In this document: in pieces, positions 2,476 through 42,346 of the stretch | Layout: the number at the start of each line of letters is the position of its first letter | Position numbering within the stretch: the first letter of the stretch is position 1 | Source of the DNA: Iodidimonas sp. SYSU 1G8 | GTDB lineage: Bacteria > Pseudomonadota > Alphaproteobacteria > SMXS01 | Direction of reading: 5' to 3' | Assembly: GCF_039655775.1 (NCBI RefSeq) | Contig: NZ_JBBYXJ010000002.1 | Span: forward strand, 1,054,001 to 1,118,000 | Length of the DNA stretch: 64,000 bases | Position numbers and translations under genes: made by a program | Notes under the pieces: generated by a model | Seen by the model: the letters and a program-made list of their open reading frames with translations, nothing else | Databases searched by the model: none | What the model was told of the DNA's origin: nothing

Positions 2476-3840
2476 ATGAGCGACGGCGCCGCGCGCTATG
2501 CCGCCGATGAAGTCCGCGATGATTTCGTTCCCAAGGAGGCCTATTTCGCTAGGGACTTCGCCGAGCTCGAGGCTGACCGGCTGTGGCCGTTCGTCTGGCA
2601 GGTCGCGTGCAGGCTGGAGGAGATTCCCGAGGTCGGCGACTATGTCACCTACGACATCGTCGACGACTCCATCATCGTCATCCGCACGGCCCAGGACCGG
2701 ATCAGGGCCTATCACAACGTCTGCCCGCACCGGGCCCGGCGCTTGCTGTCGGGATGCGGCAACACGCGGCAGATCGTGTGTCCGTTTCACGGTTGGCGTT
2801 ACGGGCTGGACGGCCGCAACATCAAGGTGATCGACAAGGCGGACTGGGGAAACTGCCTCGATCCGGACGATATCCGGCTGTCCGAGGTGCGCTGCGATCA
2901 TTGGGGCGGCTTCGTCTTCATCAACATGGATGCCCGCGCTGAACCGCTGATGGATTTTCTCGCGCCCATGACCGGGTATTGCGAGAAGTTCGAGTTCGAG
3001 AAACTGCGGTATCGCTGGTACAAGACCGTGGTGATGCCGGCTAACTGGAAGACCGTGCTCGGTTTCTTCAACGAGTTCTATCACGTGCAGCAGGCCCATC
3101 CCCAGCTGCTGGAATTCACCAACGATTATTCCCGCAGCGGCGAGTTCGGCCGGCACGCTCAGATGTGGTTCGAGGCCGACGGCGCCATGCCGTTCAGCCG
3201 CTCGCCGCGTCTGCCGCCGCGTCCCGAGCCGCCGATGAAGGACCACATCGTCGCCTTCGCCGAGCACTACAATGTCGCGCTCAAGGCGATGCTGTCCGAG
3301 CGCAACTATGCCGCCGCCATGCGCGTGCGCGATGAAGTGCCGCCCGAGACGCCGCCGCTCGACACCCTGGCCAAATGGGTCGAGTTCCAGGTCGAGGCCG
3401 CCATGGAGGACGGTGCCGGCTGGCCGGCCGACCTGACGCCCGAATACATCGAGCGCTCGGGTCTGGACTGGCACGTGTTTCCCAACACCATCTTCCTGCA
3501 TGGCCTGATCGACGGCGTGTTGTGGTATCGGATGCGGCCCAACGGGCGCGACCCGGAAAGCTGCATCTTCGACGTCTGGTCGCTGGTGCGTTATGCGCCG
3601 GGCAAGGAGCCGACGCTCGAGCGCCAGTTCTTCACCGACTGGCGCGACGGTGACTGGGGGCTGATCTACGAACAGGACTTCGCCAACATTCCCGAGGTCC
3701 AGAAAGGCTATCACTCGCGCGGCTTCAAGGGCGAGCGGACCAATCCGGTACAGGAGCGCGCGATCTCCAATTTTCACCGGGTGCTGCGGCGATTCATGAA
3801 GGATCCCCACGACAACCCACCGATCACCCGGCAACGCTGA
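2476..3840 (+). CDS. Rieske non-heme iron ring-hydroxylating oxygenase, alpha subunit
   Basis: Oxygenase component that would insert oxygen into an aromatic or alicyclic substrate, fed electrons by a reductase/ferredoxin not encoded here. The Rieske [2Fe-2S] ligands are C83-P-H85 and C102-P-F-H105 followed by the usual GW. The catalytic domain shows N190-W-K and E200-x-Y-H203-x4-H208-P, the mononuclear iron site in its Glu-containing version. Length (454 aa) is normal for an alpha subunit; no beta subunit is adjacent, though SnoaL-like proteins of the same fold class as beta subunits occur in the window. The start is supported by GGAGA about 7 bases upstream. It begins a two-gene operon with the crotonase (3 bp between stop and start) behind candidate operator A. 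The substrate cannot be read from sequence. Confidence 0.92.
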   Translation: MSDGAARYAADEVRDDFVPKEAYFARDFAELEADRLWPFVWQVACRLEEIPEVGDYVTYDIVDDSIIVIRTAQDRIRAYHNVCPHRARRLLSGCGNTRQIVCPFHGWRYGLDGRNIKVIDKADWGNCLDPDDIRLSEVRCDHWGGFVFINMDARAEPLMDFLAPMTGYCEKFEFEKLRYRWYKTVVMPANWKTVLGFFNEFYHVQQAHPQLLEFTNDYSRSGEFGRHAQMWFEADGAMPFSRSPRLPPRPEPPMKDHIVAFAEHYNVALKAMLSERNYAAAMRVRDEVPPETPPLDTLAKWVEFQVEAAMEDGAGWPADLTPEYIERSGLDWHVFPNTIFLHGLIDGVLWYRMRPNGRDPESCIFDVWSLVRYAPGKEPTLERQFFTDWRDGDWGLIYEQDFANIPEVQKGYHSRGFKGERTNPVQERAISNFHRVLRRFMKDPHDNPPITRQR

Positions 3841-13551: not shown

Positions 13552-13605
13552 GCCGGCGTGACCGCCGTGATAGGCACGAACCAATGTCCGGGGAGGGACG
13601 CGCCG

Positions 13606-14133
13606 ATGCAGGACACGCTCAACGAGGTCATCGCCCATCACTGCATTCGCCAGGTCCTGGAGCGGTATTGCCGCGGCATCGACCGGCTCGACGCGGCCCT
13701 GATCGACAGCGTCTACTGGGAGGATGCCACCGACAATCACGGCATCTATGTCGGTCCCGGCAAGGATTTCTCGGCGTTCATCATCTCAATGCTGCGAGAC
13801 GCGTTCACAGCCACCATGCATTTCATCGGCCAGTCCAACATCGCTGTCACCGGCGACCGCGCCGCGGCCGAAACCTATTTCGTCGCCTACCACACCAGAA
13901 ACGAGGACGCCGGCGCGGTCGTTGACGTCGCCGCTGGCCGCTACGCTGACATGTTCGAGCGACGCGGCGACGAATGGCGCATCCGTGACCGCACCGTGGT
14001 GATGGATTGGGTGGAAACCCGCCACGGCCTGGACCGCGCGGCGCTGGCCCTGGGCAGCTTCACCAACGGGACGCGGGACACGGCCGATCTCAGCTACCAC
14101 GCCTATGGCTGGGCGCTGAAACAGGATCGGTAA
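13606..14133 (+). CDS. SnoaL-like / NTF2-fold protein
   Basis: A 175-aa protein of the SnoaL_4 type (RYCRGIDRLDAALIDSVYWEDATDNHG near residues 23-46), with the cone-shaped alpha+beta NTF2 fold. Members are small cyclases, isomerases, dehydratases or oxygenase beta-like partners; the motif does not define the reaction. ATG 13606 is preceded by GGGGAGGG; the in-frame GTG at 13558 lacks such a site. The gene is alone on its strand between the receptor-P450 operon and the second crotonase and has its own candidate operator C, so it probably works in the same pathway. A paralogue (20229-20771) accompanies the second Rieske oxygenase. Confidence 0.85.
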   Translation: MQDTLNEVIAHHCIRQVLERYCRGIDRLDAALIDSVYWEDATDNHGIYVGPGKDFSAFIISMLRDAFTATMHFIGQSNIAVTGDRAAAETYFVAYHTRNEDAGAVVDVAAGRYADMFERRGDEWRIRDRTVVMDWVETRHGLDRAALALGSFTNGTRDTADLSYHAYGWALKQDR

Positions 14134-18829: not shown

Positions 18830-20122
18830 GTGGTCGCCGTCGTCAGGGTACAGGATGATTGCTGGATTTCCGCGCGCAAGGCGCCCGAACCCGATATGGG
18901 CACGGCTCTCATTCCCAGTGACAGATACACCTCGTCCGCCTTCATGCGGCTCGAATGGGAGCGCATGTGGTCCAGGGTCTGGCTGGTCGGCTGCCGCGAG
19001 GAAGAAATTCCCGACACCGGCGACTACATCACCACTGAGATTGGCAGCGAATCCCTGCTGATCGTGCGCGGTGAGGATCGCAAGTCGCGCGCCTTCTTCA
19101 ATGTCTGCAACCACCGCGGCAATCAGGTGAAGTTCGACAAGTGCGGCAATTCCCGCACCCTGCAATGCGCCTATCATTTCTGGGAATACGACCTGACCGG
19201 CAAACTCGTGAACGTGCCTGACGAGGAAGATTTCCATCAGGGATGCCCCAAGGACCTGCTCAGCCTGAAGGAGATCAGGACGGACGTCTGGGGCGGCTTC
19301 GTCTGGTTCAACCTGAATCCGGATGCCGAGCCGCTGATGGATTATCTGGGAGTCATCCCGTCGCACCTTGATGCCTACGGCTTCGACCGGATGGCCATGA
19401 CCCAGAACTTCACGGTCGAATGGGACTGCAACTGGAAGACCTCGGTCGACGCCTTCAACGAGGTCTATCACGTCCAGTGCATCCATCCGGAACTGCTCTA
19501 CAACAATGACGATGTTGACGTGCAGATCGACCTCTATGAGCGGCACAGCCGCTATCTGGTGCCGTACCAGACCCACAGCCCGCGCCTGGGCGCGGTTGAG
19601 GAGGTGCCTGAGATCGTGGTCGAATACATGCGGTCCATCGGCATGGATCCCGAACCTTATCAGGGCCGGGTGCCGGAGATACGGCAGGCGATCAGCCGGT
19701 TCAAGCGCGAGCATCAGGATCGGCTCGGCTATGACTATTCCCGTCTGAACGACGACCAGGTCGTCGATGACTACCACTATTACATCTTTCCCAACATCAC
19801 CCTGAACATCTTCGCGGAATGGGCGCTCTTCTTTCGGCAGCGGCCGCATGACAGCGATCCCAACAAGATGTTTTACGACGTCCAGTTCTACACCACGGTG
19901 CCCAAGGGCCAGCCGCGCCCGCCACTCCCCGATCACGACCAGTTCCGGCACGGCGAAAAGTCGCTGGGGCTCGTGCTCGACCAGGATTCGGTGAACCTGC
20001 CGCATGTCCAGAAGGGCAACAACTCCTCGGCGTTCGAAGGGCTGTGGATCAGCCATCAGGAGCGGCGCATCCGGCACATGCACCAGACACTGACGGATTA
20101 TATCGACGGGAAGCGTCCCTAG
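18830..20122 (+). CDS. Rieske ring-hydroxylating oxygenase, alpha subunit (second copy)
   Basis: A 430-aa Rieske oxygenase. Cluster ligands are C93-N-H95 and C113-A-Y-H116; the residue after H116 is Phe (HFW), where HGW is usual. The catalytic site shows N201-W-K, E211-V-Y-H214 and H219-P. The start GTG is preceded by GGGAG at 7 bp. The gene for a SnoaL-like protein follows after 106 bp on the same strand, so the pair may form an alpha/beta-like oxygenase or consecutive pathway steps. It is only distantly similar to the Rieske protein at 2476 and has no copy of that cluster's operator. Substrate and redox partners are unknown. Confidence 0.9.
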   Translation: MVAVVRVQDDCWISARKAPEPDMGTALIPSDRYTSSAFMRLEWERMWSRVWLVGCREEEIPDTGDYITTEIGSESLLIVRGEDRKSRAFFNVCNHRGNQVKFDKCGNSRTLQCAYHFWEYDLTGKLVNVPDEEDFHQGCPKDLLSLKEIRTDVWGGFVWFNLNPDAEPLMDYLGVIPSHLDAYGFDRMAMTQNFTVEWDCNWKTSVDAFNEVYHVQCIHPELLYNNDDVDVQIDLYERHSRYLVPYQTHSPRLGAVEEVPEIVVEYMRSIGMDPEPYQGRVPEIRQAISRFKREHQDRLGYDYSRLNDDQVVDDYHYYIFPNITLNIFAEWALFFRQRPHDSDPNKMFYDVQFYTTVPKGQPRPPLPDHDQFRHGEKSLGLVLDQDSVNLPHVQKGNNSSAFEGLWISHQERRIRHMHQTLTDYIDGKRP

Positions 20123-20228: not shown

Positions 20229-20771
20229 ATGAGCGTCGAAGCCGAACTGAAGGCGCTGCGCGCCGAAATCGAACAACTGAAATCCCGCGAACAGATCCGC
20301 CAGCAGATCACCCGTTATGGCCGTGGCCAGGAATGGCTCGACGGGTCGCTGATGGACGAGGTGTTTTACGATGACGCTCATGTGGATTTCGGTTTCTTTG
20401 TCGGCGAGTGGAAGGACTACAAACCGGTCCTGATGGAGATCGAGGCCCATGGCGAGACCACGTTCCATCTGTGCGCCGCGCCCCAGATCGAATTCGAGGG
20501 CGAGAACAAGGCCTACGCCGAAGTCTATGGCATCGCCGGCGGCCGCGGCCATGACGGCAAGACCAACGTTTTTGGCGGCCGTTACTTCGACGTCTGGGAA
20601 CGCCGGGAGAAGACCTGGAAAATCGCCCGGCGCATCTTCAAGCTGGACTGGCACATCGACCACCAGTTCCCGCAGGGCGAGGCCGTGATGCACCCCGAAC
20701 TGGAGCCGGCCAAGCCGCGCTCGCCCCAGAACCCGCTGTTCCGCCGCATGGGCGCCGACGTCACGGGCTGA
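20229..20771 (+). CDS. SnoaL-like / NTF2-fold protein paired with the second Rieske oxygenase
   Basis: A 180-aa protein with an N-terminal coiled-coil-prone helix (MSVEAELKALRAEIEQLKSREQIR) and a SnoaL-like core (ITRYGRGQEWLDGSLMDEVFYDDAHVDFGFFVGEW, then GRYFDVWERREKTWKIARRIFKLDWH). NTF2-fold proteins include oxygenase beta subunits as well as cyclases and isomerases; here the Rieske gene directly upstream favours a partner or next-step role. The ATG has GGGGAG upstream. Its stop codon directly abuts the stop of the converging MFS gene. Confidence 0.83.
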   Translation: MSVEAELKALRAEIEQLKSREQIRQQITRYGRGQEWLDGSLMDEVFYDDAHVDFGFFVGEWKDYKPVLMEIEAHGETTFHLCAAPQIEFEGENKAYAEVYGIAGGRGHDGKTNVFGGRYFDVWERREKTWKIARRIFKLDWHIDHQFPQGEAVMHPELEPAKPRSPQNPLFRRMGADVTG

Positions 20772-37442: not shown

Positions 37443-38003
37443 TCAGCCTGCTTCGTCAATGATGACCGACGCGGCGCGCTTGGCCTGCCGCGCGGCGATG
37501 GGAGCGCCGAACTCGTGGGCGACCGCGATGGCGCCTTCGTGCAGGATCAGGATCTGCTGCGCCAGATTGCGCGGGTCCCTGAGACGCGCGGATTGCGCGT
37601 TCTCCAGGATGTAATCGAAAACCGCGCGCTTCTGGGCCGCGGCCGTGGTGTGCACCGGATGGTTGACGGGGCCGTACTCGCAGGCCGCCTTGATGAAGAC
37701 GCAGCCATTGAAGTCTTCCTTCTCGAACCATTCCTCAAGCGCGTCGAAGATGGCGAGCAGGCGATCGGCCGGCTCTTCCGCCAGCGCGTCGGCGCGGGTC
37801 CGCAGCCAGGAGACATAGCGCGCACCTTCGGCCTCAAGCGCCGCGACGATCAAATCGTCCTTTGATTTGAAGTGGTTGTAGAGGGTCATCTTGGCGACCC
37901 CGGCCTGGGCGAGAATGGTGTCGATACCGGTGGCATGGAATCCGTCGCGCGAGAACATGGCGGCGGCGGTATCGACAAGATGGTCGCGTTTGGGGCTGGG
38001 CAT
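37443..38003 (-). CDS. TetR-family transcriptional regulator
   Basis: A 186-aa TetR/AcrR repressor: HTH DHLVDTAAAMFSRDGFHATGIDTILAQAGVAKMTLYNHFKSKDDLIVAALEAEG and a C-terminal ligand domain with WFEKEDFNGCVFIKAACEYG and ANLAQQILILHEGAIAVA (TetR_C_16/YcdC-like group, often sensing electrophiles or small organics). The conserved Cys in GCVFIKA is typical of this subgroup. No strong ribosome binding site is seen before ATG 38003. An inverted repeat at 38030-38057 lies directly upstream and may be its own operator. Confidence 0.9.
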   Translation of the reverse strand: MPSPKRDHLVDTAAAMFSRDGFHATGIDTILAQAGVAKMTLYNHFKSKDDLIVAALEAEGARYVSWLRTRADALAEEPADRLLAIFDALEEWFEKEDFNGCVFIKAACEYGPVNHPVHTTAAAQKRAVFDYILENAQSARLRDPRNLAQQILILHEGAIAVAHEFGAPIAARQAKRAASVIIDEAG

Positions 38004-38029: not shown

Positions 38030-38057
38030 GTCTGTTTAAGAGTAAGTAGTAACAGAC
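38030..38057. promoter_or_regulatory. Inverted repeat, possible TetR operator
   Basis: GTCTGTT (38030-38036) and AACAGAC (38051-38057) are perfect 7-bp arms around a 14-base AT-rich spacer, 27 bp upstream of the TetR start. Size and position fit autoregulation by the adjacent TetR protein. Confidence 0.4.
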
Positions 38058-38086: not shown

Positions 38087-39949
38087 TCAGGCCCGCCCGG
38101 CCAGCATGGACGAGAACAGGTCGGTCATGCGCTCGGCCACTTGGGTGTAATCGTCCGCGCCGATGGTCTCGGGGATGAGCTGTCCCTCGATCAACAGCAT
38201 GGCGGCGCCCTGGACGAGGGACCAGGCCGTGACCGCCGCCACCTTGGGGTCGATCTCGCCGCCGCCCCGCGCACGTACAACGTCGCTGACCGCCGCGCCC
38301 AGCAACTGGGCGGCGGCAATGCGGGCCTGCATCAACTCGCGTGAAGCCTCGTTGCCGATGAATTCGCCGCTGCTGATGAGCCGGAACAGGCCGGGATTGG
38401 CGACCGCGTACTTAATGTATCCGACGCCCAGCGCCCGGTGTCGGGCGACCGCGTCCTGCGCGCCGCGAGCCTCCGCCTCCATGAATTCGATCATGGTCCA
38501 CAGGGATTCGCTGGCGACGGCCATCAGCAACGCCTTCTTGTCGGCGAAGTAGAAGTAAGGTGCGTTGTGCGACACGCCGACGGCCCGCGACACCTCGCGG
38601 ATGCTGACGCCCGCCTGGCCCGTGCGTTCGATCGTCTCCATGGCCGCCTTGATGAGCGCGGTCCGCACGCCCTTGTCATGCGCATCCTGAGGCGGTTGGG
38701 ACGGGCTCGTGCTCAGCGCCCGTCGGCCCGCAGGCCCGAGGATGTCCAGCACCGCGCCCTTGGTCGATCCGGCCGGTGCCGGGGGCAGCGGCTCGCGGCG
38801 ATGCCGCTTGATGTCGTCCAGGGTAATGGTCGATCCCGCGGCTTCGCTCGCGGCCTGAATCTCCGGATCGAGGAAGGGGGCCGTGTCGAAATAGTCGGCG
38901 GCGTAGACGATCCAGCCATCCTTGTAGCGCCGCACGCTCGCGCCGCGCGTCATCACCACCCGCTTGCCGTCGGGCAGTACGGCCACCTGACGCCACTCGC
39001 TGTAGGAGACGTCGCCATCGAAGATCGGGGCGCGAAGGGGTTCGAATTCGATGTGGCCCACCTTGGCCATGATGTCGCCCAGCCAATCGCGGATCGCCTG
39101 CTGGCCGCGCACCTCGCCGAAGATCGGGTCGATGTAGACGGCGTCCGTCGGATGCATGAGGTCGGAGGTCACGGCGTAGTAGTCCGCCGGCCGGCTGATC
39201 TCGAAGGCCACTTCGTGCAGTTCGCGATTGGTCAGGCCCGATGGCCGCGAGACCAGCCCGTCCTTGGGCTTGCCGGCGCGCGCCGTCAGCCATGCCTGCA
39301 CGTTGGGCGAGGGCAGCGCTGCCGGCGGCTTGGTCCAGGCGGTGGTTGGCACCCGCGGCCAGGCGGGCAGCGGCACGACCCGCTCGCCCTTCGCCGCGGC
39401 AGCCGCCAGTCCAATGCGAATCGGCGTCGAGTCGAAATAGTCGACCGCGTAGGTGATCCAGCCATCGCGATACTCCCGGACGCTGATCCCCTTGACGATC
39501 GGTTTCCACGTGCCATCGACAGGCTGGACGAGCTGCCATTCATCGATGGAGGTTCCGCCTTCACCATCGTCCATGAATTCGGCTGGGAATACCGGGTCGA
39601 AGCTGGCGCCGCCGCCCTGGCCGGACATGATCGGCACCAGCCAGGCGCGGATTTTCTTCTGGCCATGCAGGTCCCCGAAGATCGGATCGATATAGGTCGA
39701 CTTCGTGGGGTGGAGCATGTCGCAGTGCAGCTCGAAGAAGCGCTCGCCCAGTGACCGGTCGTTGATGATGGAATGAATGTCCGGATGCGACAGGCCGCTG
39801 GGCGTTGCGACGAAGCGGCGCGCGTCGAGCGGCTTGCCCGACATCTCCCGCATATAGGTGTCGAGATAGGCCTGGGCCGCGGGCGAATGGGTCGGCCGCC
39901 ACAGTGTCTTCTGGCGTTCGAGGACCGCGTTGGCTTCAGGTTTCTTCAT
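38087..39949 (-). CDS. Double SnoaL/NTF2-like domain fused to C-terminal TetR regulator
   Basis: A 620-aa protein of unusual architecture. Residues ~45-175 and ~233-358 are two related SnoaL/NTF2-like domains; both contain HPT-x3-YIDPIFG-x3-GQ-x2-IR-xWL (residues 80-103; 266-289, HPTDAVYIDPIFGEV) and a closing DGWI-x-YA-x-DYFD. A proline-rich linker (~360-425) leads to a TetR domain: HTH VSIREVSRAVGVSHNAPYFYFADKKALL (448-475) and a helical ligand/dimer domain with VGYIKYAVANPGLFRLISS. TetR HTHs are normally N-terminal, so two small-molecule-binding folds placed before one are unexpected. ATG 39949 has AAGGAG at 5 bp; a longer frame from 40045 adds a signal-peptide-like stretch that would make no sense on a DNA-binding protein. 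It follows the TonB receptor by 111 bp. Confidence 0.82.
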   Translation of the reverse strand: MKKPEANAVLERQKTLWRPTHSPAAQAYLDTYMREMSGKPLDARRFVATPSGLSHPDIHSIINDRSLGERFFELHCDMLHPTKSTYIDPIFGDLHGQKKIRAWLVPIMSGQGGGASFDPVFPAEFMDDGEGGTSIDEWQLVQPVDGTWKPIVKGISVREYRDGWITYAVDYFDSTPIRIGLAAAAAKGERVVPLPAWPRVPTTAWTKPPAALPSPNVQAWLTARAGKPKDGLVSRPSGLTNRELHEVAFEISRPADYYAVTSDLMHPTDAVYIDPIFGEVRGQQAIRDWLGDIMAKVGHIEFEPLRAPIFDGDVSYSEWRQVAVLPDGKRVVMTRGASVRRYKDGWIVYAADYFDTAPFLDPEIQAASEAAGSTITLDDIKRHRREPLPPAPAGSTKGAVLDILGPAGRRALSTSPSQPPQDAHDKGVRTALIKAAMETIERTGQAGVSIREVSRAVGVSHNAPYFYFADKKALLMAVASESLWTMIEFMEAEARGAQDAVARHRALGVGYIKYAVANPGLFRLISSGEFIGNEASRELMQARIAAAQLLGAAVSDVVRARGGGEIDPKVAAVTAWSLVQGAAMLLIEGQLIPETIGADDYTQVAERMTDLFSSMLAGRA

Positions 39950-40060
39950 GGGGTCTCCTTCGGGCGCCTCCGATCGCACCGGTCCGCTCGCGGCGAGGAT
40001 GAGGCTAGTGGCAAACAGGGCGCGGAGCATCCGTTTTGATGGCATCGGCGTGGCCCCGGT

Positions 40061-42346
40061 TCAGAATTTGTAGCGGACGAGCACGCCGTAGGTGCGCGGC
40101 GCGCCCGGTATGCCCAGATAGGTGCCCACAAGCCGGTTCAGACCGGGACCGCCGCCCAGCGCCGAGCCGATCTGCGCGCAACCGACCAGATATTGTTCGT
40201 CCGCCAGATTCTTGGCCCAGACCTGAACATCGATGCGGTCGTCATCCGTACGAAAGCCCGCGCGGGCATTGATCAGCGTATATGCCTTCTGCCGGCACAG
40301 GGGATCGGCGCCCAGGTCCAGATCCTGCCGGCCGGTATACAGCGCATCGATGCCCACATAGAACGCACCGCCCATGCTTTCGACGGGGAGGGTGTAGTTC
40401 GCCGAGCCGGCGAGCTGCCATTCCGGCGCGTTCGGCAGAACATCGCCGGTGCGATCGCCGAACTGACCGCCGGGAAGCGGGCCATTCGGATAGTCGGTGT
40501 ATTTGGCCTTGTTGTAGCCGGCGCTGGCGAGCAGGGAGAAATTGTCGGTGACCTGCGCGAAGGCTTCGAGCTCGATGCCGGTGCTCCGGGCCTTGGCGGC
40601 GTTCGTGGTGCGGATTTCCGGCGCGTCGAAAATCGTCACCTGCAGATCGCGGAACTGGATCAGGAAAGCCGACAGATTCAGCGATACGCGTCGGTCGAGC
40701 AGGAAGGTCTTCGCCCCAGCCTCGAAATTCCTTGCCGATTCCGGGCCGAACTCCAGCCGGGAAGGATCGAGCGAGATAGCGCTGCCACTGAGCCCGCCGC
40801 CGTTGAAGCCGCCCGACTTCGCGCCTTCCGAATAGGTGAAGAACAGATTGGTGGCGTCGTCGATCGAATAGACCACGCTGCCCATCAGCGACAGGTTGTT
40901 CTCCGAGCGCTTGAACAGGGTCGGCGGGAACGGCTGGAACCCGATCAGGCCACCGAACAGCGCGCCGACCTCCTGGGAGATCAGCAGGCTGCGGCCCTCG
41001 CGGTCGATGCGCGCGCCGCCGGTCAGCTCGATCTGGTCGGTGATGTGCCAGGTCAACTGCCCGAACAGCGCCTGACTGTTTACATCCAGGTCGTGATAGT
41101 GGACCTGCTGCACGCCCTGCAGGCCCGGCGGCAAGCCGAGCAGGGTCGAATCGTCCACATTGGTCTGCAGGTCGCTCTTCAGATTCGACCAGTAGAAGTA
41201 GGCACCGACCAGATAGTCGATCGGGCCCTCGCTGTCCGAGACAAGGCGCAGTTCTTCGCTGAGCTGCCACTGCTGGTTGTCGCGTCCTGAACGGAAGAAC
41301 GCCTCGGCGCTGTAATCCAGATCGAGGAAGTTCTCGCTCCTGAAGCCGCGATAACCGGTCAGCGACGTGAGAACGGCGCCGCCCAGATCGTAGTTCATCT
41401 CGATGGAGCCGCCCCAATTGTCGACCGAATTGCGTTCGGCGTCCGGCGTCTTCTGTACGTCGCGGTCGAACACATTGCCCGGCGTCGGGACGGGGTAGGG
41501 CGGCGGCAGGAACAGGAACGCCGGCTCGAAGCCGACCAGCAGGAGGTCGCCGATGGTGCTGTTGCTCTTGTCGCTCTGGTAATCACCGGAAATGGTGACG
41601 TCGAAATCATCGCCGGCCTGGGCGTGGAATTTGCCCCTCAGGCCGAAACGCTTCACATCCGCCACCGCCGAACCGTCCACGGTGTTGCGGCGCAAGCCAC
41701 TATCGTCGGCGTAGTACGCTGACAGGGACATGGCGGCGACACCTTCGACCAGCGGCACCTCGATCCCGCTGCGCAGTCGCAAGGCGTCGTAATTGCCATA
41801 CTGGGCATCCGCCGTCAGGTGGAACTCGGTCAGCGAGGGCTTGCGCGTGATGATATTGACGGCGCCCACGGTCGAGTTCTTGCCATACAGCGTGCCCTGG
41901 GGACCGCGCAGCACCTCGATCCGCTCCAGATCGACCAGCTCGGTGTTCAGCTGTTCCGGACGCTGCATGTAGATACCATCCACATAGAACGACACGTTGG
42001 GGTCGATGCCCGGCTGGGTGTTGCGGGCGGCGCTGGTCAGGCCGCGTATGGTGACCCTGTTGTCTCCAGCACTGCCCTGGCCGAAATCGATGCGCGTGTT
42101 GGGCACGAACCGGGCGAGATCGTCCAGCGACGCGATGTTGCGTTCCTCCATGAAGGATTCGCCGAAGGCCGATATGGAAATCGGCAGTTCGGACAGCGTC
42201 TGTTCGCGCTTCTGAGCCGAGACGATGACTTCCTCGATGCGCGGCCCTTCCTGCGCGCTGAGCGCGAATGGACCAAGCGCCATCGCGATCGCGGCGCTCG
42301 TCAGGACAAAGTGGTGGTGTCGTCGCGCTGGCGCGGCGTTGGTCAT
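40061..42346 (-). CDS. TonB-dependent receptor upstream of the SnoaL-TetR regulator
   Basis: A 761-aa receptor: signal peptide (FVLTSAAIAMALGPFALSAQ), TonB-box-like EEVIVSAQKR, plug with LPISISAFG, ARFVPNTRIDFGQGSAGDNRVTIRGLTSA and ERIEVLRGPQGTLYGKNSTVGAVNIITRKPS, and barrel ending RTYGVLVRYKF. This is the sphingomonad-type catabolic receptor group, typically for hydrophobic organic molecules. GGGGAGG lies 6 bp before ATG 42346. The regulator gene follows in the same direction, and two tandem palindromes stand 80 bp upstream, so the receptor is probably controlled by that regulator in response to the imported compound. Confidence 0.94.
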   Translation of the reverse strand: MTNAAPARRHHHFVLTSAAIAMALGPFALSAQEGPRIEEVIVSAQKREQTLSELPISISAFGESFMEERNIASLDDLARFVPNTRIDFGQGSAGDNRVTIRGLTSAARNTQPGIDPNVSFYVDGIYMQRPEQLNTELVDLERIEVLRGPQGTLYGKNSTVGAVNIITRKPSLTEFHLTADAQYGNYDALRLRSGIEVPLVEGVAAMSLSAYYADDSGLRRNTVDGSAVADVKRFGLRGKFHAQAGDDFDVTISGDYQSDKSNSTIGDLLLVGFEPAFLFLPPPYPVPTPGNVFDRDVQKTPDAERNSVDNWGGSIEMNYDLGGAVLTSLTGYRGFRSENFLDLDYSAEAFFRSGRDNQQWQLSEELRLVSDSEGPIDYLVGAYFYWSNLKSDLQTNVDDSTLLGLPPGLQGVQQVHYHDLDVNSQALFGQLTWHITDQIELTGGARIDREGRSLLISQEVGALFGGLIGFQPFPPTLFKRSENNLSLMGSVVYSIDDATNLFFTYSEGAKSGGFNGGGLSGSAISLDPSRLEFGPESARNFEAGAKTFLLDRRVSLNLSAFLIQFRDLQVTIFDAPEIRTTNAAKARSTGIELEAFAQVTDNFSLLASAGYNKAKYTDYPNGPLPGGQFGDRTGDVLPNAPEWQLAGSANYTLPVESMGGAFYVGIDALYTGRQDLDLGADPLCRQKAYTLINARAGFRTDDDRIDVQVWAKNLADEQYLVGCAQIGSALGGGPGLNRLVGTYLGIPGAPRTYGVLVRYKF

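Follow-up and report, generated by a model that had tools for sequence, protein, structure and literature searches.

The window analysed here, a 64,000-nucleotide stretch of the genome of Iodidimonas sp. SYSU 1G8, carries on its minus strand a single gene in which two NTF2/SnoaL-like domains are followed by a linker and a complete TetR regulator, and which lies directly downstream of a TonB-dependent receptor gene running in the same direction (Table 1). The frame is free of stop codons from 40045 to 38087, and translation from the ATG at 39949 or from that at 40045 would give 620 or 652 residues, respectively. Between the receptor gene and a divergent ettA-like gene lies a 25-nt inverted repeat made up of two perfect TTGACAnTGTCAA palindromes, roughly 80–115 bases upstream of the receptor start. 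A sequence-only reading of this DNA had proposed the order of the domains within one open reading frame, which Pfam, AlphaFold2 and the open frame now confirm; it mentioned neither the two operator-like palindromes, nor the operon with its TonB receptor, nor the leader-like extension in frame with the gene.

Table 1. Features of the fusion locus, in window coordinates
Feature	Position	Strand	Remarks
Fusion gene, NTF2–NTF2–linker–TetR	38087–39949	-	620 aa; well-supported start
NTF2/SnoaL-like domain 1	39404–39799	-	residues ~51–182; AlphaFold2 model, fold matches, alignment of eight homologues
NTF2/SnoaL-like domain 2	38882–39229	-	residues ~241–356; Pfam SnoaL_2, AlphaFold2 model, homologue alignment
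Linker	38681–38785	-	residues ~389–423, ~35 residues; 8/8 double-NTF2 homologues stop near its start
TetR domain	38120–38656	-	HTH (TetR_N) residues 432–478; ligand/dimer domain (TetR_C_33) residues 505–610
Shine-Dalgarno AAGGAG ahead of ATG 39949	39955–39960	-
In-frame upstream extension, signal-peptide-like, with alternative ATG 40045	39950–40045	-	shuffles; weaker Shine-Dalgarno
TonB-dependent receptor gene, upstream of fusion	40061–42346	-	start proposed from GGGGAGG
Operator-like palindrome 1, TTGACACTGTCAA	42427–42439	.	sequence evidence
Operator-like palindrome 2, TTGACAGTGTCAA	42449–42461	.	22 bases from palindrome 1

In the 652-residue form, Pfam recognizes SnoaL_2 above its cut-off at residues 300–381 (E 7.6e-13), TetR_N at residues 464–510 (E 3.2e-8; 33.7 bits against a cut-off of 24, with profile positions 1–47 covered in full) and TetR_C_33 at residues 537–642 (E 6.8e-12; 46.4 bits against 26.8). 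The first NTF2 domain has no Pfam match and is visible in the AlphaFold2 model, where, with eight homologues as input, both halves reach a pLDDT of mostly 85–94 and the first matches NTF2/ketosteroid-isomerase folds with Z scores of 11–12 over about 120 residues. By Foldseek and VIA-align, the structural neighbours of the NTF2 part are limonene-epoxide hydrolases, ketosteroid isomerases and SnoaL-like proteins, together with a C-terminal-domain homologue of orange carotenoid protein, a likeness of fold that says nothing of function; a sequence search of the PDB using the NTF2 alignment returned no match. On these models both halves adopt the NTF2 (cystatin-like) fold and belong to the SnoaL/NTF2-like superfamily. 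Conserved acidic and aromatic residues are present according to the homologue alignment, and any catalysis is only putative. The TetR part was poorly modelled in that run because the alignment lacked rows for it; modelled alone with 24 of its own relatives, it reached a mean pLDDT of 91.8, and its nearest solved structure is 3on2 from Rhodococcus RHA1 (TM 0.84 on the target).

The search for other double-NTF2 proteins yielded eight, four of them in the same family (L013, L014, L016 and L020) and four elsewhere (L015 from an Acidimicrobiia MAG, L017 from a Deltaproteobacteria MAG, L018 from Litorirhabdus and L019 from an Actinomycetota MAG). Like the fusion they possess two NTF2 domains, at 41–46% identity, but all eight end ahead of the linker, within about 12 residues of the point at which the fusion enters it, and have no TetR. 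The halves are indeed duplicated, as had been claimed, but the duplication is old and common to the whole double-NTF2 family, so that what sets this genome apart is solely the attachment of TetR. A second NTF2–TetR fusion was found neither in 10 genomes of the family, which are also those of the order, nor in 385 genomes of the class (where the double-NTF2 family itself occurred in this and one other genome at the limit set), nor in 398 genomes drawn from the phylum (double-NTF2 family in this genome only), nor in an 84,980-species contig collection, in which eight of 19 candidate stretches were relatives and the full-length protein as query retrieved no relative. These rarity scans represent samples or close matches only, and for the class and phylum no more than a few candidates from each genome were scored; plasmid records yielded neither a relative of the NTF2 part nor a near match to the region as a whole. 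The statement that no described family is known to have this order of domains agrees with the architecture having been met in one genome only in the samples searched.

Among the seven closer double-NTF2 proteins, a comparison that leaves out the two most divergent homologues, L019 and L020, the fusion has changed 10 of the 45 positions that are otherwise invariant in the first half and 3 of 47 in the second, against 0–3 first-half departures for each of the other six; when all nine are compared, it differs at 2 of the 48 positions that are invariant in the other eight. The first-half departures, which include part of the YIDPIFG motif, fit a change of role without proving one. As for the motif itself, its presence in both halves was read correctly, though at residues 80–92 and 266–278 of the 620-residue form it is one residue longer than claimed. 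The first half (39674–39712) carries the YIDPIFG of the second (39116–39154) in place of the YFDAIFG, or a close variant, seen in the other proteins, which may reflect either convergence or local gene conversion. A combined alignment of NTF2 and TetR proteins misplaced the TetRs and was set aside.

The gene order of receptor followed by double-NTF2 gene recurs in Litorirhabdus, where a TonB receptor 30% identical to ours lies directly upstream of L018; some other double-NTF2 homologues, unlike the fusion, adjoin Rieske oxygenase or acyl-CoA synthetase genes as judged by eye. Also by eye, the window holds further SnoaL-like and Rieske oxygenase genes (13558–14133, 20229–20771, 2476–3840 and 18830–20122), as well as a P450, an acyl-CoA ligase and other TonB receptors, and such a neighbourhood would suit the catabolism of an apolar compound.

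Free-standing relatives of the TetR part were taken best first to a total of 29, and 24 free relatives entered the residue alignment. The fusion shares with these TetR_C_33 (PF13305) regulators the fold, an operator palindrome upstream and the HTH core (V459, S460, A463, P464 and F468), but it differs in its N-terminal extra domains and in the replacement of the family residues Y423, H425, G426, H467 and H580 by Ala, Asp, Lys, Tyr and Gln. The YHHG arm found in all 24 relatives is thereby Ala-His-Asp-Lys in the fusion, and the C-terminal His at position 580 is kept in 23 of the 24; the two together are a signature of the aligned subgroup and not of TetR proteins at large. No NTF2 domain was seen in the up to 90 residues inspected ahead of each of the 29, and the long open frame upstream of L054 reads by eye as out-of-gene sequence.

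By tblastn, 11 of the 29 free relatives (L039, L040, L041, L043, L045, L046, L047, L050, L057, L058 and L067) have a gene for a carotenoid-cleavage oxygenase no more than 1.5 kb away, and 8 of 10 chosen neighbour proteins that were scanned match RPE65 (PF03055), whereas the fused TetR sits beside a TonB receptor instead. Palindromes resembling TTGACAnTGTCAA often separate these regulators from the oxygenase genes, and the two likely constitute a regulon in which TetR_C_33 proteins would control the oxygenases through TTGACAnTGTCAA. A search of literature listings found neither TTGACAnTGTCAA in a bacterial context nor a TetR_C_33/carotenoid-oxygenase regulon, one query giving only work on a herpesvirus and on chromatin loops. 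The RPE65/carotenoid oxygenase gene of the present genome sits on the other contig and lacks a TTGACAnTGTCAA site.

Exact copies of TTGACAnTGTCAA occur in the 3.9-Mb genome only as the pair ahead of the receptor; one mismatch adds three further places, and the pattern read backwards is found nowhere. When 300 bases ahead of each free relative's matched region were examined, the palindrome was present exactly in 3 of 29, with at most one mismatch in 10 and with at most two in 17, against 0, 0 and 3, respectively, of 258 control windows at the same loci. Shuffles produced it there at one mismatch or fewer in 0.09% of cases, and it is also the top exact palindrome upstream of these relatives when none is chosen beforehand. 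The 29 include near-duplicate pairs; judged by eye, the 10 positives are not pairs of this kind. Several relatives have the palindrome twice, and the closest, L039 (the L009 gene), carries a perfect copy alongside one with a single mismatch. The exact palindrome was not found near the other double-NTF2 loci, the best matches at L018, L013, L020 and L008 having 2–4 mismatches, and a scan for sigma-70 sites returned no promoter-like site. The neighbouring TetR (37443–38003) was considered as owner of the operator and rejected, its upstream 300 bases giving a best match with 6 mismatches and containing a different repeat of its own. That inverted repeat, GTCTGTT/AACAGAC at 38030–38057, is perhaps the neighbour's own site.

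The fused protein is the sole TetR_C_33 protein in its genome, and it is tied to the TTGACAnTGTCAA pair by a one-to-one match of regulator and candidate site within that genome. Since the only exact pair coincides with the only such regulator, and since the palindrome recurs at free relatives, the fused TetR most likely represses its own receptor–fusion operon through these predicted operators. Repression rather than activation, binding as a dimer and control by ligand through the NTF2 domains are what we infer here. A double-NTF2 (SnoaL-like) gene would have been joined to a downstream TetR_C_33 gene, and the product from the start at 39949 would be a cytosolic repressor whose TetR part, as a dimer, would occupy both TTGACAnTGTCAA sites ahead of the receptor gene and silence the operon, its own gene included. 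A compound imported by the receptor, or a derivative of it, would then free the repressor from DNA, with the NTF2 pockets now providing or assisting ligand sensing. Taken as a whole, this ligand-released, autorepressing fusion is the explanation toward which we lean, if only a little beyond even. The loss of the C-terminal His and of the YHHG arm, together with the extra divergence of the first NTF2 half, counts for this explanation; on the other side stand the plausible signal peptide in frame upstream and the leaders of related proteins, the TetR's own complete C-terminal domain, which could sense alone, the single example of the fusion, and the lack of the palindrome at 19 of the 29 free relatives with one mismatch allowed (12 of 29 with two). 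As to the ligand, the genes beside the free TetRs and the folds of the pockets lead us to guess at an apolar compound of apocarotenoid-, terpenoid- or steroid-like character.

TetR regulators usually sense through their own C-terminal pocket. What we describe is a real and so far singular TetR variant, with a well-supported operator and a putative ligand sensor, which may detect a compound and accordingly turn the genes for its own uptake system on or off; the operator makes the fused regulator directly testable. If a foreign, enzyme-derived pocket does the sensing, ligand specificity would have been changed without remodelling the TetR pocket, and such a natural case could be a template for biosensors. 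A stronger form of the idea, which we put forward tentatively, is that of an enzyme, sensor and repressor in one chain, in which SnoaL-type pockets would bind and perhaps convert the TonB-imported compound and their occupancy would release TetR from the twin operators. Were this true, the TetR pocket would have been given up for the enzyme-derived one, and the two starts could even yield exported and cytosolic forms. Trigger enzymes such as PutA likewise place an enzyme-type domain and a DNA-binding domain in one autoregulating chain, although their folds differ from those of the fusion, in which catalysis is only putative.

Several other accounts of the protein can be envisioned. The TetR may sense with its own pocket while the NTF2 pair, an enzyme of the same pathway, simply rides along; the completeness and confident fold of the TetR part would be expected in that case, as would the small number of NTF2 positions (2 of 48) at which the fusion leaves the consensus of all eight other proteins, but the loss of the near-invariant His and of the YHHG arm and the further divergence of the first NTF2 half make this unlikely.

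We consider it quite unlikely that the main product begins at 40045 and is an exported, periplasmic double-NTF2 protein dragging a TetR tail acquired after loss of a stop codon, with any working TetR made from an internal GTG at 38752 in the linker. The upstream extension is improbable as a chance signal peptide, being equalled in only 4.5e-5 of composition-preserving shuffles, and two related double-NTF2 proteins (L006 and L007) carry lipoprotein-like leaders by eye; moreover, the ATG at 40045 is only 15 bases past the receptor stop codon, so translational coupling is possible. Against export, the Shine-Dalgarno energy, calculated with an assumed anti-Shine-Dalgarno tail, is -9.3 kcal/mol at 39949 but -5.0 at 40045 and -4.0 at the internal GTG, six of the eight homologues have no leader, the HTH is intact and operators are present. 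DNA-binding proteins must remain inside the cell, where a signal peptide is out of place, and the start at 39949 is therefore favoured. Unless both starts are used, the leader is a relic.

The coding scan bears on whether the gene is whole. Frame 0 leads everywhere but in one window of the linker between the NTF2 halves (around residue 226 of the 652-residue form); at the NTF2–TetR junction it still leads, with a third-position GC of about 0.8, and the coding score drops in the NTF2–TetR linker as it does in the one joining the two halves. A change of frame at the junction is thereby ruled out. The sequence-only reading had held that split homologues, or a frameshift or sequencing error near residue 420, would speak against a fusion: homologues of both parts are indeed separate genes, but no frame change or stop was found. 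Because of this, and of the eroded N-terminal arm of the TetR, we read the gene as a probable lineage-specific fusion of two known kinds and not a sequencing join. That a miscalled stop or compensating errors have joined two real genes is very improbable, for although none of the 8 double-NTF2 homologues or 29 TetR relatives is joined to the other kind, both sides share one frame, coding bias runs through the linker, the assembly consists of 2 contigs at 100% completeness, and the TetR has no good free start and an eroded YHHG arm. One free relative offers a partial parallel: at L048 (964–2016) a TetR of the same kind continues in frame into an enzyme-type domain, by eye an apparent GNAT acetyltransferase, but the extra domain is C-terminal and unrelated to NTF2.
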